A DNA stretch of 64,000 bases. Origin: Litoreibacter arenae DSM 19593 (lineage in GTDB: Bacteria > Pseudomonadota > Alphaproteobacteria > Rhodobacterales > Rhodobacteraceae). Below are positions 31,212 to 39,534 of the stretch, piece by piece. The translations under genes were made by a program, and so were the position numbers. The notes beneath the pieces are model-generated. The model saw only the letters and a list, made by a program, of their open reading frames with translations. It did not search any database and was not told where the DNA came from. Position 1 is the stretch's first letter; the number at the start of each line of letters is the position of its first letter. Where the stretch lies: contig NZ_KE557314.1 of the NCBI RefSeq assembly GCF_000442275.2, positions 775,085-839,084 of the forward strand, in the 5' to 3' direction.

Positions 31212-32081
31212 TTAGTTGCCAGCCAACAGACGACAAAGCTCGTCCAGCTGGTCGAACGACTTGTAGGTAATGGTCAATCGACCACCCTCCGTCCCCTCAA
31301 TATGGTCAACGCTTACACCCATTTTCAGCGTTGCAGCCAGATCACCTTCCAGCGCCTTCGTGTCGGGATCTTTCTCGACAGCGGGCTTGCGCTGCTTCGG
31401 TTTGCGCGGCTCGCCGGAAGATTTCGCCAACCGCTCCGTCTCGCGCACGGACAGGCCGCCTTTGACGACACGCCGCGCCAACTCACTGGGGTTGTCGGTG
31501 GTGATGAGAGCACGAGCATGGCCGCTGGTCAGGTCACCATTTCTGAGCAGCCTGATGACGTCTTCAGGCAGGTTAAGAAGCCGCATCAGGTTTGCGATGT
31601 GACTGCGGCTTTTCCCCAAGGCGGTCGACAACTGCTCCTGAGTATGGCCGAACTTGTCTTGAAGCTGACGATAACCCATCGCTTCCTCAAGAGGGTTAAG
31701 ATCGGCACGCTGGATGTTCTCGATGATGGCGATCTCGAGAACTTCCGTATCGTCAAGCTGCCGAACCACCACGGGTACTTCGTGTATTTGGGCGATCTGG
31801 GCAGCCCGCCAGCGGCGCTCGCCGGCAACAATCTCAAACTTGCCTGAGATACTGGGATGCGGGCGGACAATCAGTGGTTGAATAATGCCCTTTACCCGAA
31901 TGGATTCGGCAAGCTCGTGAAGGTCCTCTTTAACAAAGTCCCGCCGCGGCTGATCGGGATTGGGTTCAATCCGCTCGATCGGTATCATCCGCTCACTGCC
32001 GCTTGATTTCGGCGAGTCCGGCGTTTCAATATCGGCCATCAATGCCGAAAGCCCGCGTCCCAGTCCACGTTTCTCTGCCAT
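31212..32081 (-). CDS. parB: chromosome partitioning protein ParB
   Basis: A 289-residue CTPase and parS-binding protein. Starting at ATG 32081 it reads MAEKRGLGRGLSALM, the usual ParB beginning; box I (PNPDQPR), the CTP-binding box II GERRWRAA (residues 87-94), ENIQRADLNPLEEA and the helix-turn-helix with LGKSRSHIANLMRLLNLP are all intact, and a C-terminal dimer domain follows. The frame extends 29 codons upstream, but that is inside parA's coding region and not ParB-like. parA lies one base upstream, and two parS sites are at 33460 and 35362. Confidence 0.97.
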   Translation of the reverse strand: MAEKRGLGRGLSALMADIETPDSPKSSGSERMIPIERIEPNPDQPRRDFVKEDLHELAESIRVKGIIQPLIVRPHPSISGKFEIVAGERRWRAAQIAQIHEVPVVVRQLDDTEVLEIAIIENIQRADLNPLEEAMGYRQLQDKFGHTQEQLSTALGKSRSHIANLMRLLNLPEDVIRLLRNGDLTSGHARALITTDNPSELARRVVKGGLSVRETERLAKSSGEPRKPKQRKPAVEKDPDTKALEGDLAATLKMGVSVDHIEGTEGGRLTITYKSFDQLDELCRLLAGN

Positions 32082-32082
32082 T

Positions 32083-32883
32083 CTAAGCTCTTTCCTGTTG
32101 AGAATGTCTGGCGACGATCTCCGTCGCCAACGACTTGTAGGCCACCGCACCCAGCGAGCTTGGGTCATAATTGATCACGGGCATTCCATATGATGGAGCC
32201 TCGCTCAGGCGGACGTTTCTTGGAATCATTGTTTTGAAGACCAAATCCTTCAGATTCTCCCTGACGTCCAGCTCAACCTGATGACACAAGTTGTTGCGTC
32301 TATCATACATGGTCAACACAACACCTTCCAGTCGCAAGCGGGAATTTGCAGTTTCGCGGATTTCCCGCACCGACAGCATGAGTTGTGACAGGCCTTCCAG
32401 TGCAAAGAATTCTGCCTGAAGCGGAACGAGCACGGAATCCGACGCAACCATCGCATTCAAAGTCAAAAGATTGAGGGACGGAGGGCAATCAATCAAAATG
32501 TAGTCAAGATCAAGATCTTCTGTTGCCAGCGCCCCAAGTGCGTCACTCAGCAGAAAAATTCGCCGCGCGGAAGACACCAGCTCAAGATCGGCAGAGCTCA
32601 AATCCGTTGTCGCGGGTGAAATACGCAATCCCGGAACTCCAGTTTCGCGCAAAACATCTTTCAAGGGCAGCTCGTTCAGCAATAGATCGTAAGTCGTGTC
32701 TTTGCGATCTCCATGCTCGATCCCCAAACCGGTTGAGGCGTTGCCCTGTGGGTCAAGATCAATAACCGCTACATTTAGTCCCTTTGCTGCCATTGATGCA
32801 CCTAGGTTGATGGTGGTCGTCGTTTTGCCCACACCACCCTTTTGGTTGGCGACAGAAATTATCCGCGGTGGTGCTTTGGCCAT
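32083..32883 (-). CDS. parA: chromosome partitioning ATPase ParA
   Basis: A 266-residue ATPase that segregates the ParB-parS complex. The deviant Walker A is KGGVGKTT with K15 and K20, and Walker A' and B are VIDLDPQGNAS and YILIDCPPSLN. MIPRNVRLSEAPSYG is the typical late ParA/Soj motif. It lies directly after rsmG (stop and start codons adjacent at 32883/32884), in the minus-strand chain rho to parB. The gene group rsmG-parA-parB is the usual arrangement near bacterial origins. Confidence 0.97.
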   Translation of the reverse strand: MAKAPPRIISVANQKGGVGKTTTTINLGASMAAKGLNVAVIDLDPQGNASTGLGIEHGDRKDTTYDLLLNELPLKDVLRETGVPGLRISPATTDLSSADLELVSSARRIFLLSDALGALATEDLDLDYILIDCPPSLNLLTLNAMVASDSVLVPLQAEFFALEGLSQLMLSVREIRETANSRLRLEGVVLTMYDRRNNLCHQVELDVRENLKDLVFKTMIPRNVRLSEAPSYGMPVINYDPSSLGAVAYKSLATEIVARHSQQERA

Positions 32884-33510
32884 TTAAGCTGCTCGTCTTA
32901 ATTTGGTTATTATTATCAGCGCTGACTCGTCGCTGGTCATGCTCAGGCGCTTTTCATAATTGAAATCCCACATCTCCGCTGCGGTGTCTAGCTCCTGTTG
33001 ATATCGCTCTCCCTTTAAAAACAGCGCGGTCCCACCCTTCTTTAGGTGTAAATCGGCCATGCTCATGAGGGCGACAAGTGGCGCGAGAGCGCGGGCCGTG
33101 ACGACATCCGCCGCCTGAGGGCTTAACTGCTCAACCCTTTCCGCTAGTATGTTTACGTCCAGATCCATTTCCCTCGCCGCTGCCATGAGGAAGGAGGCTT
33201 TGCGGAGGTCCGATTCAACCAAAGTCACGTTTAGATTTGGCGCTTTTTCTTTGGCAAGCGCCGCGATTACCAATCCAGGAAACCCCCCGCCGGACCCTAG
33301 ATCACACAATTTCTGCGCATCGGCTGGCACCGCCTCGAATACTTGCGCTGAATCCACGAAATGTCTGCTCCAAATCTCAGGAACTGTCGACTTGGCGATG
33401 AGATTGATTTTGGAGGTCCACTTAACCAGCAGTGTTTCATAGTGAGAAAGGCGGTCAATTGTTTCACGTGAAACAGAGAAGCGGTCAGCGAACTGCTCTT
33501 GGTCTGTCAT
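32884..33510 (-). CDS. rsmG: 16S rRNA (guanine-N7) methyltransferase RsmG
   Basis: A 208-residue methyltransferase (GidB) that methylates G527 of 16S rRNA. The SAM-binding motif is DLGSGGGFPGLVIA, preceded by the WTSKINLIAKST region. A perfect parS site overlaps its 5' coding part (33460-33475), encoding part of VSRETID near residue 13. Two bases separate it from mnmG and it abuts parA. Length and motifs are normal. Confidence 0.95.
   Translation of the reverse strand: MTDQEQFADRFSVSRETIDRLSHYETLLVKWTSKINLIAKSTVPEIWSRHFVDSAQVFEAVPADAQKLCDLGSGGGFPGLVIAALAKEKAPNLNVTLVESDLRKASFLMAAAREMDLDVNILAERVEQLSPQAADVVTARALAPLVALMSMADLHLKKGGTALFLKGERYQQELDTAAEMWDFNYEKRLSMTSDESALIIITKLRRAA
33460..33475. other. 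parS centromere site, inside rsmG
   Basis: TGTTTCACGTGAAACA, an exact match to the 16-bp palindromic parS consensus for chromosomal ParB. It lies about 1.4 kb from parB and 5.2 kb from the oriC candidate, in the 5' coding part of rsmG. Confidence 0.95.
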
Positions 33511-33512
33511 AT

Positions 33513-35378
33513 TTAACGTGCCTGCGCCTTCACGCGTCCAAGTATCAGCGTAAGAGCCGCAGGTGTTACACCATCGACCTTTGCGGCCTGAGCAAGGGTT
33601 TCAGGGCGAAGGCGCGTTAGCTTGCTTTTCATCTCGTTGGACAAGCCAGTCAGTGTTTCAAAGCTGAAATCTTCAGGGATTCGCACAGCTTCATCCCTTC
33701 GCAAAGCTTCAGCGTCCTTGTTCTGGCGCTCGATATAGCCAGCATACAAGGCATCACGCGAGATCTGTGTGGTAATCTCCTCGCTGTAATTTTCCAAGCC
33801 AGGAACGAGCGGTCGGATAGCGTCCAGCGTAACGTCCGGAAAAGACAGCAAATCAAACGCTGATCGACGCCTGCCGTCCTTATTCACCTTTAAACCAATC
33901 CGCTCTGCCTCTTGCGGCGAAACACGCACATTGACCATCTCGGCCCTTAAAGCGTTCAGATCCGCCTCTTTCCTGGCGTAGATTTCTTTTCTCACCTCGC
34001 CAACGCAGCCGGCCGCTATACCGATCGGGGTCAGCCGTTGATCAGCATTATCGGCCCGCAGCGACATTCTGAACTCTGCTCGCGAAGTGAACATTCGATA
34101 TGGCTCCTGCACACCTCGCGTAATGAGATCGTCAATCATGACGCCGATATAGGCTTCGGATCGACTGACCACGACATCATCTGTCCCTTGCGCACGCCTG
34201 GCTGCGTTCAAGCCAGCGATCAGTCCTTGAGCAGCAGCCTCTTCGTAGCCGGTTGTTCCATTGATCTGGCCCGCAAGGTAAAGGCCCGGAACCTCGCGCA
34301 GCTCCAACGTGCGCTTCAACGCTCTCGGATCAATGTAGTCGTACTCAATCGCATAGCCGGGCTGCAAAATCTCTGCGTTTTCAAGGCCCGTGATTGACCT
34401 GACGTATCGCTCCTGAACCGCAACAGGAAGCGAGGTCGATATGCCATTCGGATAAACCGAGTTACAATTGAGCCCTTCTGGTTCAAGAAACACCTGATGT
34501 GACGTCTTGTCAGCAAAACGCACCACCTTATCCTCGATAGACGGGCAGTATCGCGGGCCTACGCCGTCGATATGTCCGCCATACATCGCGGACAATTCCA
34601 GATTTCCTTTAATGATATCATGGGTCTGTTCGTTGGTGTGCGTGATGCCACAGGAGACTTGCGACGCCAATTGTTGCGCAGGCAGAAATGAGAACAGCTC
34701 CGGCTGCTCGTCTCCGGGCTGCATTTCCAAGATATCCCAGTTGATGCTATCTCTGGCCAATCTCGGCGGAGTTCCAGTCTTTAGCCGTCCCATGTCCAGG
34801 CCGAAGCTGTCGATCCTTTCGGCAAGCCGGATCACCGGTGCGTCACCGACCCGCCCGCCAGGTTGCGATTTATCCCCGATATGGATGACGCCGCGAAGAA
34901 ACGTTCCCGCAGTCAAAACCACGGCAAGGGAGGTCACGGTGGATCCGTCCGCAAGCTCAACGCCGCGTACGTGATCATCCTGTAGAATAAGGTCCGCGAC
35001 TTCGCCTTCAATCACCGTAAGATTGGGCTGTGTGTTGATGAAGTTCTGGATCGCGTTGCGGTAAAGAGACCGGTCCGCCTGTGCCCTCGGTCCTTGCACA
35101 GCAGGACCCTTCCTTCGGTTGAGCAGGCGGAACTGGATGCCCGCCGCATCGGCTGCGCGGCCCATAATGCCATCCAGCGCGTCGATCTCCCTGACGAGAT
35201 GGCCCTTTCCAAGGCCGCCAATCGCCGGATTGCATGACATCACGCCAATCGTTTCGGCTCTCTGAGTAATCAATGCAGTTCGCGCGCCGGTACGGGCGGA
35301 CGCATGCGCCGCCTCTGTGCCAGCATGGCCGCCACCAATCACTACTACGTCAAAGCTGGGATGTTTCACGTGAAACAC
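33513..35378 (-). CDS. mnmG: tRNA uridine-5-carboxymethylaminomethyl modification enzyme MnmG
   Basis: A 621-residue FAD enzyme (GidA) that with MnmE makes cmnm5U34 in tRNAs. The FAD motif [10 protein letters not shown] follows the start; [22 protein letters not shown] and a C-terminal helical part complete it. The second parS site covers its first codons (the palindrome is read as MFHVKH). mnmE is two bases upstream in the chain, so the two enzymes of this complex are cotranscribed. Length is normal. Confidence 0.96.
35362..35377. other. parS centromere site, at the start of mnmG
   Basis: A second exact TGTTTCACGTGAAACA, covering the first codons of mnmG (start at 35378). It is 1.9 kb from the first parS site and about 3.3 kb from the oriC candidate. 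Confidence 0.95.
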
Positions 35379-38087: not shown

Positions 38088-38540
38088 TCAGATCGGCCGC
38101 GCGATCACCATCACGACGATCGCGATCATCAGCACCGTCGGGACTTCGTTCATGATCCGGTAGGTGCGGCCCGTAAGAGTATTCTCTCCCGCCACAAACC
38201 CTTTCTGCCGAGCACCGAGCCATTCGTGGAACGCTGTCATTCCCAACACCGCACCGGCCTTGATCCAGGGCCAGCCCTCAGACCAAACGACTATCCCGGG
38301 GGTGAATACCAATAACAGCCCGAAAATCCATGTGCTGATCATTGCGGGTTGCATAATCAGCTTGAACAGCTTGCGTTCCATCATCTGAAAAAGCGCATCT
38401 GTTTCGGAACCAGTCGTCACCTTTTCTGTGTGGTGGACGAACAACCTTGGCAAATAGAACAATCCTGCCATCCATGCGATAACCGAGATCACATGCAGGC
38501 TTTTTGTCCATGGGTAAATTTCTGCCAGAAAATCTGTCAT
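38088..38540 (-). CDS. hemJ: protoporphyrinogen oxidase HemJ
   Basis: A 150-residue membrane protein converting protoporphyrinogen IX to protoporphyrin IX, the penultimate step of heme synthesis. Four hydrophobic segments are visible; the conserved His lies in KSLHVISVIAWMAGLFYLPRLFVHH, residues 13-37, and K-x-G-A-V-L-G-M-T-A-F-H near the third segment. HemJ is the PPO used by most alphaproteobacteria. Its start codon marks the left edge of the oriC candidate. hemE, often next to alphaproteobacterial origins, is not present here. Confidence 0.93.
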   Translation of the reverse strand: MTDFLAEIYPWTKSLHVISVIAWMAGLFYLPRLFVHHTEKVTTGSETDALFQMMERKLFKLIMQPAMISTWIFGLLLVFTPGIVVWSEGWPWIKAGAVLGMTAFHEWLGARQKGFVAGENTLTGRTYRIMNEVPTVLMIAIVVMVIARPI

Positions 38541-38935
38541 GCGCGCCTCGCTCTCGGCCTTCCTTCTTAAATAAATAAAGAAGAAAGAAAAGATGATGTT
38601 GTTAGTAGGTACAGTGGATAGTGTGGATCAAATACTTGTCCACTGACGAAGAAATCAGCGGGGACAGTTTTGCCCAAGAATTTTAGAATGTCATATTACC
38701 TATTGAAATCAAATATCTAAGATGTTTTCAGTTGGTGGAGAATCTGTGGACAAACACTGAGCGGAATTGCCTTCAGTCGCATTACCAACACCGGTGAATC
38801 CCGCACTCCACACGGGAGAACCACGCGAACGGAATCTTTGCAATGTGGGTAAGATCGGCTCCTACGCCAAACGCGGTGGATAACCGGTCCGATGCGCAAT
38901 ATATATCCTTCAGCTTACCCTCAGAGTTATCCACA
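38541..38935. other. probable chromosomal replication origin oriC
   Basis: A 395-base non-coding stretch between divergent hemJ and maf. DnaA-box-like 9-mers (consensus TTATCCACA, either strand) are at 38622-38630 (TGTGGATCA), 38636-38644 (TTGTCCACT), 38745-38753 (TGTGGACAA), 38875-38883 (GGTGGATAA) and 38927-38935 (exact). AT-rich blocks lie at 38565-38600 and 38677-38730. Three GANTC sites (38740, 38796, 38832) could be CcrM-methylated. IHF-like matches are at 38626-38638 and 38707-38719. Leading-strand gene orientation switches here, and parAB with two parS sites lies within 7.5 kb. Confidence 0.82.
38927..38935 (+). promoter_or_regulatory. perfect DnaA box ending in the maf start codon
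   Basis: TTATCCACA matches the DnaA-box consensus exactly. Its last base is the A of the maf ATG at 38935. There is no Shine-Dalgarno sequence upstream of that ATG, so DnaA binding and maf expression may share this site, or maf may be translated from a leaderless or weakly initiated message. Confidence 0.8.
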
Positions 38936-39534
38936 TGACACGCCCCATAATCCTTGCCTCAGGTTCGGCTATTCGGCAAACGATGCTGCGTCAGGCGGGC
39001 GTTAACTTTACCTCGACAGTCGCCCGCATTGATGAAGATAGCATTAAAGCCTCTCTTTTGGGTGAAAATGCCAACCCGCGCGACATCGCAGATACGTTGG
39101 CCGAATTCAAAGCCCGCCGCGTTGCCGGAAAAAAACCGCAAGCGCTGGTAATCGGATGCGATCAGGTGCTGGAATTCGAGCGCGAGATCCTGTCGAAACC
39201 GACCTCGCCGGAAGACGCCGCCGCGCAGATCAAGCGGATGTCAGGCAAACAGCACAAACTTCTATCCGCGGCGGTCATCTACGAAGACGCCAAGCCGGTC
39301 TGGCGCACTGTTGGTCAAGTGCGGTTGACGATGCGCAGTCTTAGCCCGGATTACGTCTACAGCTATGTCGAACGCAATTGGGACGACATTCAGCATTGCG
39401 TTGGCGGCTATCAACTGGAGGCCGAAGGCGCGCGGCTTTTTGCCCGCGTGGATGGCGACTACTTTACCGTGCTGGGCCTGCCGCTACTTGAGGTGCTAGG
39501 CTATCTTACAATGTCAGGAGCAATAGACGGATGA
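38935..39534 (+). CDS. maf: Maf-family nucleoside triphosphate pyrophosphatase
   Basis: A 199-residue house-cleaning pyrophosphatase for non-canonical or modified nucleotides. The N-terminal motif reads [12 protein letters not shown] where the Maf consensus is S-x-S-P-R-R; the catalytic Asp region VIGCDQVL and KPTSPEDA are present, and Arg in SAIR is kept. It is the first gene rightward of oriC. ATG 38935 overlaps a DnaA box, with no clear ribosome site. Its stop overlaps the aroE ATG in an ATGA, starting the maf-aroE-coaE-dnaQ operon. Confidence 0.9.

Follow-up and report, generated by a model that had tools for sequence, protein, structure and literature searches.

Sequences of the basal unwinding system (BUS) have been reported in 1755 of 2070 origins, most frequently as a tandem pair of DnaA boxes with a 13-bp spacer, and the accompanying rule for DnaA-trios asks for three or more 3'-NAN-5' trios no further than 16 bp from the box (PMC8287927). 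On the protein side, Asn187 of B. subtilis DnaA contacts the central adenine, where a G or T slows opening and a C does not; the residues of this pocket are not universally conserved although their properties generally are, and the authors left open that DnaA homologues may read other sequences (PMC10721633). For the Alphaproteobacteria, hemE and COG1806 are described as the borders of Cori (PMC1914354), a position of dnaA close to ori is conserved in three of five orders, and parAB has been recommended as the anchor for ori (PMC8116508). Ori-Finder calls of oriC exist for 101 Rhodobacteraceae (PMC6699656), so that origins in this family have already been predicted as a group.

Here we describe the intergenic gap between hemJ and maf (38541..38934; 394 bp with divergent flanks, at 813.6-814.0 kb of contig C11) in a window of 64,000 nucleotides (G000:C11:775085-839084) from a 3.68-Mb assembly of 14 contigs. 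The initial annotation had interpreted this gap as a replication origin, and that interpretation is supported at the sequence level by the cluster of DnaA boxes, the parS sites, a step in GC3 skew, the synteny and a family-wide footprint; we consider it almost certain that the gap is the single origin (oriC) of the main chromosome. The site is where a specialist would look, and the origin call is thus in itself ordinary. What we add to an ordinary oriC at the expected place is a conserved putative unwinding element that departs from the published trio rule.

The genes to the left of the gap, hemJ (38088..38540, minus strand, TIGR00701), rho, mnmE, mnmG, rsmG, parA and parB, are all on the minus strand, and those to the right, maf (38935..39534, plus strand, TIGR00172), aroE and then two ORFs that we take from their translations to be coaE and dnaQ, are all on the plus strand. 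The switch of gene direction pointed out earlier, from hemJ-to-parB on the left to maf-to-dnaQ on the right, is thus real. The parB and parA genes (31212..32883, minus strand) were identified by profile matches, parB above the domain cut-off and parA by model matches under the cut-offs only. Neither hemE nor COG1806 borders the gap, hemJ and maf standing there instead; hemE is found at C11:1093605, 280 kb from the gap, and dnaA at C11:514616, ~299 kb from it, a distance that speaks against the gap in so far as dnaA is conserved near ori in three of the five orders (PMC8116508). The earlier remark that hemJ replaces hemE is right as to position, and hemJ usually stands here, in 110 of 135 maf loci. 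At up to 2 mismatches the whole genome contains two parS sites only, both of them perfect copies of TGTTTCACGTGAAACA and both 3-5 kb left of the gap, one inside rsmG (33460..33475) and the other inside the first codons of mnmG (35362..35377), which places the candidate origin near parS as well as near parAB. As both parS sites are inside coding sequence, codons and ParB site are constrained together at these two places.

Exactly five 9-mers in the gap are within one mismatch of TTATNCACA, and one of the five is exact. Those on the minus strand are TGATCCACA (38622..38630), TTGTCCACA (38745..38753), TTACCCACA (38844..38852) and TTATCCACC (38875..38883), and the exact box TTATCCACA (38927..38935) is on the plus strand, where it overlaps the A of the maf start codon. 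A weak box with 2 mismatches, CTATCCACT (38613..38621, minus strand), stands in tandem with TGATCCACA, the letters of which are presumably those of the Caulobacter G-box. In dinucleotide-shuffled versions of the gap the mean count of boxes was 0.36, and five were reached in 0 of 5000 shuffles, so that the five box-like 9-mers with one exact copy that the initial annotation had listed for these 394 bp are beyond chance; one correction is that the exact box extends into the maf start codon by one base. The whole window contains 24 matches at up to one mismatch against 20.8 expected, and it is therefore the clustering and not the total of boxes that is unusual. In 1.17 Mb sampled from the genome, about one third, no other 400-bp stretch had more than two boxes, and the exact TTATCCACA is not enriched genome-wide (13 occurrences against 16 for the reversed pattern).

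The two AT-rich blocks and the IHF-like matches described earlier for the gap could both be confirmed. The AT-rich blocks, 38561-38600 and 38691-38730, reach 80% AT in 30-bp windows, and the first of them, which is conserved and lies beside a box, contains the predicted DNA unwinding element (DUE; 38561..38591, plus strand), with 30-bp windows of 70-80% AT and conservation in both genus and family. An IHF-like TCARNNNNTTR is found at 38628 and WATCARNNNNTTR, with one mismatch, at 38707..38719 on the plus strand, where many relatives of the same genus have consensus-like sites; the full IHF consensus is absent from the window's own gap but present in 24 of the 100 non-redundant homologous gaps, where shuffles give 4.2. 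The CtrA site TTAA-N7-TTAA was not found in the window gap and occurs in 5 of the 100 homologous gaps against 1.9 in shuffles, and GANTC sites are not enriched in the same gaps (74 of 100, with 82.7 in shuffles). One site of this CcrM type, at 38740, abuts the second DnaA box (GAATCTGTGG..., 38740-38753), and this GAATC is kept in all eight closest loci (the window and seven relatives).

We compared 135 maf loci, some of which represent the same species twice and some of which are from outside the family. A divergent hemJ is found upstream of maf in 110 of them and rho without hemJ in 13, while 12 have neither hemJ nor rho in reach or come from other groups. The hemJ-maf gap has a median length of 404 bp; 109 of the hemJ loci have a gap below 500 bp, and removal of near-duplicates left 100. 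As read by eye from the N-terminal residues of the translations, the gap in Caulobacter L238 and Kordiimonas L244 is bordered by hemE on one side and on the other by a COG1806-like gene, which is followed by maf. As in the window, maf and aroE are on one side in L238, L241, L243, L244, L245 and L247, over a stretch that stops short of the region beyond hemE. Since hemE and COG1806 form the borders in these Caulobacter and Kordiimonas loci as well as in Cori, both were probably lost from the flanks of the origin in the Rhodobacteraceae.

A block of ~65 bp within the gap is conserved, in which the AT-rich DUE is followed by GATGATG..GTAGG, 13 bp and a DnaA box. In the eight closest loci 38562-38630 is nearly invariant, and the rest of the gap has diverged save for the boxes and a few short patches. 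The core of the block is kept in 20 loci of the same genus, and the best conserved columns among the 100 non-redundant loci are AAARGATGATG, GTAGG and TGTGGATNA.

The middle of this block is a triplet-periodic element, GATGATG-TTGT-TAGTAGG (38592..38609, plus strand), which resembles an array of trios with its proximal 5'-TAG-3' units at 38603-38605 and 38606-38608. With the G of the proximal TAG (38608) taken as the anchor, 319 of the 442 G positions in the 15 bases before it are in phase 0 over the 100 loci, against at most 172 in shuffles within loci, a count that is not a probability since the loci are related. C hardly occurs over the 27 bases covered (at most 0.03). The proximal unit has a central A at a frequency of 0.86 in the 100 loci, and in the next four units T is the commonest central base (0.53-0.69, with A at 0.04-0.23); a second triplet frame has central A at 0.60-0.61 at offsets -11 and -14, in the GATGATG part. 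The window itself has only two contiguous 3'-NAN-5' units and thus falls short of the three trios near the box that the published rule asks for. The spacer, in contrast, agrees with the 10-13 bp of the BUS layout, as 13 bp separate the proximal trio from TGATCCACA, which has CTATCCACT beside it as its tandem partner. Together, the array in register, the tandem box pair and the 13-bp spacer are consistent with a DnaA-trio array.

Where B. subtilis DnaA (8btg) has Asn187, Ile190, Ile193, Arg202 and Glu228, the aligned DnaA of this genome has Tyr, Ile, Leu, Lys and Glu, and so differs from the BUS pocket of Asn187, Arg202 and Glu228 at the first two of these residues and agrees with it at the third. 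Among the 30 best-scoring alphaproteobacterial DnaA loci from 111 genomes with a match, the present one included, position 187 is Tyr in 29 and Phe in one, and Lys at 202 and Glu at 228 are found in 30 out of 30; in the same alignment position 187 is Asn in T. maritima and Gln in A. aeolicus. As the pocket residues are not universal (PMC10721633), this mismatch is a weak ground for excluding the locus from BUS. A paired change of origin element and DnaA pocket is plausible from these comparisons, in which the count is correlational, the pocket is shared by descent in the class and the elements from outside the family come from six loci read by eye. We tentatively suggest, as something that may well prove wrong, that the single-strand code of origins is altered in the Rhodobacteraceae, and perhaps in most of the Alphaproteobacteria, where 3'-GAT-GTN-NTW-GTA-GTA-5' would stand in for repeated 3'-GAT-5' and be read by a DnaA with Asn187 changed to Tyr and Arg202 to Lys. 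The second triplet frame restores central A in the distal part, and the altered code is therefore not a forced reading. If it were true, the origin element and the pocket of the initiator would have changed together, and such a paired change in DNA and protein makes it testable whether the DnaA of Alphaproteobacteria shares the single-strand code of Bacillus. The literature that we covered, which was largely open-access, contained no description of the triplet element or of the Tyr substitution in DnaA.

Alternatively, the triplet element could be bound by another protein and not by DnaA as a single strand. This would fit with the best columns of the element being at least as well conserved as the box, and with the trio rule applying in the window to the two proximal units only. 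We nevertheless regard it as unlikely and favor DnaA as the reader of the element, because the element agrees with the BUS layout as published in its place, its orientation and its 13-bp spacing (PMC8287927).

Of the 21 stretches of C11 sampled on the left of the gap, 16 have a negative GC skew; from 814 to 880 kb the skew is close to zero or slightly negative, and from 880 kb on it is positive in 12 of 12 stretches. The raw cumulative minimum of the sampled part of the contig is thus at ~880 kb, 66 kb to the right of the gap. The initial annotation had named a skew minimum elsewhere on the chromosome as grounds for abandoning the origin, and in its raw form the skew does weakly raise that objection. 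Once gene orientation is corrected for, the main step falls at the gap, across which GC3 skew goes from -0.091 to 0.000 in plus-strand genes and from +0.004 to +0.081 in minus-strand genes. This orientation-corrected step is at the gap, on small samples from a crude ORF picker (the first bin to the right contains 6.8 kb of plus-strand genes); at 840-880 kb GC3 skew is noisy, and plus-strand genes at 860-880 kb are back to -0.100 (5 kb). Gene orientation accounts for part of the flat-to-negative skew at 814-880 kb in this genome.

The motif GGGCAGGG, a variant of the KOPS GGGNAGGG of E. coli, occurs 512 times in the genome against 150 for the reversed pattern (3.4x). All 98 of the sites listed for contig C4 (15194-642125) are plus-strand sites, and a turn of polarity to minus between 840 and 860 kb probably marks the terminus. 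On the left of the gap, the first sample of C11 has 6 plus and 19 minus sites, and on the right 5 plus and 1 minus. GGG[CA]AGGG is sparse near the gap, minus sites at 9 and 43 kb to the right preceding the first plus site at 51 kb, and the polarity on C11 changes from minus to plus at ~857-865 kb, ~50 kb right of the gap. Two single-contig chromosomes, each from another genus, have their switch in skew and KOPS near the homologous element, with negative skew in 9 of 9 stretches to the left and positive skew in 7 of 10 to the right in G430, and in 9 of 10 and 7 of 9, respectively, in G190; in both, the first stretch or two right of the element are still slightly negative. The close relative G002 behaves in skew like our genome, and its nearest stretch on the right (maf) side is slightly negative.

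If the origin were instead located 20-70 kb to the right (840-880 kb of C11) and the gap were a DnaA-titrating or regulatory cluster, the raw skew minimum at ~880 kb and the KOPS change at 857-865 kb would be explained, and the similar small rightward lag in three relatives could be counted in its favor. We find this very improbable, as no second box cluster is present there (the interval was scanned except for 0.9 kb, 859,085-860,000), the orientation-corrected skew steps at the gap, the parS sites are left of the gap, and the block is conserved together with the gap across the family. The raw skew minimum thus raises a weak objection, GC3 places the step at the gap, and we retain the hemJ-maf gap as the almost certain origin.

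R1, a sequence model of the block built from 35 of the 100 non-redundant loci, gave 101 matches at E<=0.01 in 100 of 149 family genomes, some of which are the same species as training loci, with one match in each genome and two in G341. Of these matches, 96 share the strand of maf and precede it by 265-1181 bp (with a median of 318 bp and more than 1 kb in three); the other five are from G341 (two), G331 and G392, which lack a maf match, and from G437, where the match is on a contig other than that of maf. The remaining 49 of the 149 genomes had no R1 match under stricter filters. A comparison of this gap across the Rhodobacteraceae had been proposed as a check on the origin, and with R1 in 100 of 149 genomes both synteny and block prove to be conserved. 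A looser family pattern matched 55 of the 149 genomes, many of them with letters that do not resemble the origin element, and was replaced by R1; as a class-wide marker AAGATGATG-N8-22-GTGGAT was rejected, its matches in 28 of 289 genomes having inner letters that look unrelated. The compact putative unwinding element, which two thirds of the family genomes searched contain, can serve as a sequence mark of oriC in draft genomes.

An HMM of the block trained on hemJ-bearing loci only was tested on 26 loci at E<0.01. It found the block in 6 of 13 rho-adjoining loci without hemJ (L198 and L256, two of the six, look like one and the same sequence) and in 2 of 3 Kordiimonas-type loci, likewise without hemJ. 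Four further rho-only loci gave weak matches (E 0.045-0.26), the rho-only loci L063, L187 and L240 gave none, and at E<=1 no match was obtained in the Caulobacter-type L238, L241 and L243 or in Kordiimonas L245. In 1.17 Mb of the genome the window block, a training member, scored 47.7 bits and everything else at most 5.2 bits. By eye, a GTAGG is present at a similar place in L238, L241 and L243, and the Kordiimonas-type element drifts, to TTGTAGTTGTAG (L245:754-769) and TTGTTGTTGTTG (L247:720-741), with the triplet register seemingly kept. That the block serves hemJ as a promoter or leader, with the boxes a means for DnaA to regulate hemJ and maf, deserves hardly any credence, for although the block is ~100 bp or less upstream of hemJ in aligned loci, its presence beside rho in 6 of 13 hemJ-less loci and in 2 of 3 hemJ-less Kordiimonas-type loci argues against this, and the box, parS and skew evidence would be left unexplained.

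For the gap as oriC, we suggest the following course of initiation. DnaA would bind the box pair at 38613-38630 as an anchor, from where an oligomer could extend along the plus strand over the triplet element at 38592-38608 and open the AT-rich stretch at 38561-38591, with the right-hand boxes and the IHF-like bend helping assembly. Replisomes would then depart from the gap bidirectionally, and the new origins would be moved apart by ParB bound to the two parS sites. The less certain step is that DnaA may read a modified trio with periodic G and a central T for A.

With regard to the origins already predicted in the family, the site broadly fits the criteria of Ori-Finder, namely a position near the GC-disparity minimum, at a local GC minimum and near parAB, and the accessible parts of the study on Rhodobacteraceae give no anatomy of the calls at the level of elements (PMC6699656). 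Compared with the hemE-type origin, the homologous position with maf and aroE on one side is shared by the window, whereas the hemE and COG1806 borders seen by eye in L238 and L244 are not, nor are the TTAA-N7-TTAA CtrA sites. Like the window, Cori of Caulobacter crescentus has maf on one side of the origin (L238) and an IHF-like site, and the T-to-G change of its G-boxes (PMC4468827) is also that of the window box TGATCCACA. From BUS the locus differs in that the window has two contiguous trios only and the further units in the family have mostly a central T, and from B. subtilis DnaA its initiator differs in having Tyr for Asn187 and Lys for Arg202. What the window has in common with BUS of B. 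subtilis and others is the box pair, the spacer of 10-13 bp, the proximal 3'-GAT-5', the 3-nt periodicity and the AT-rich DNA (PMC8287927; PMC10721633).
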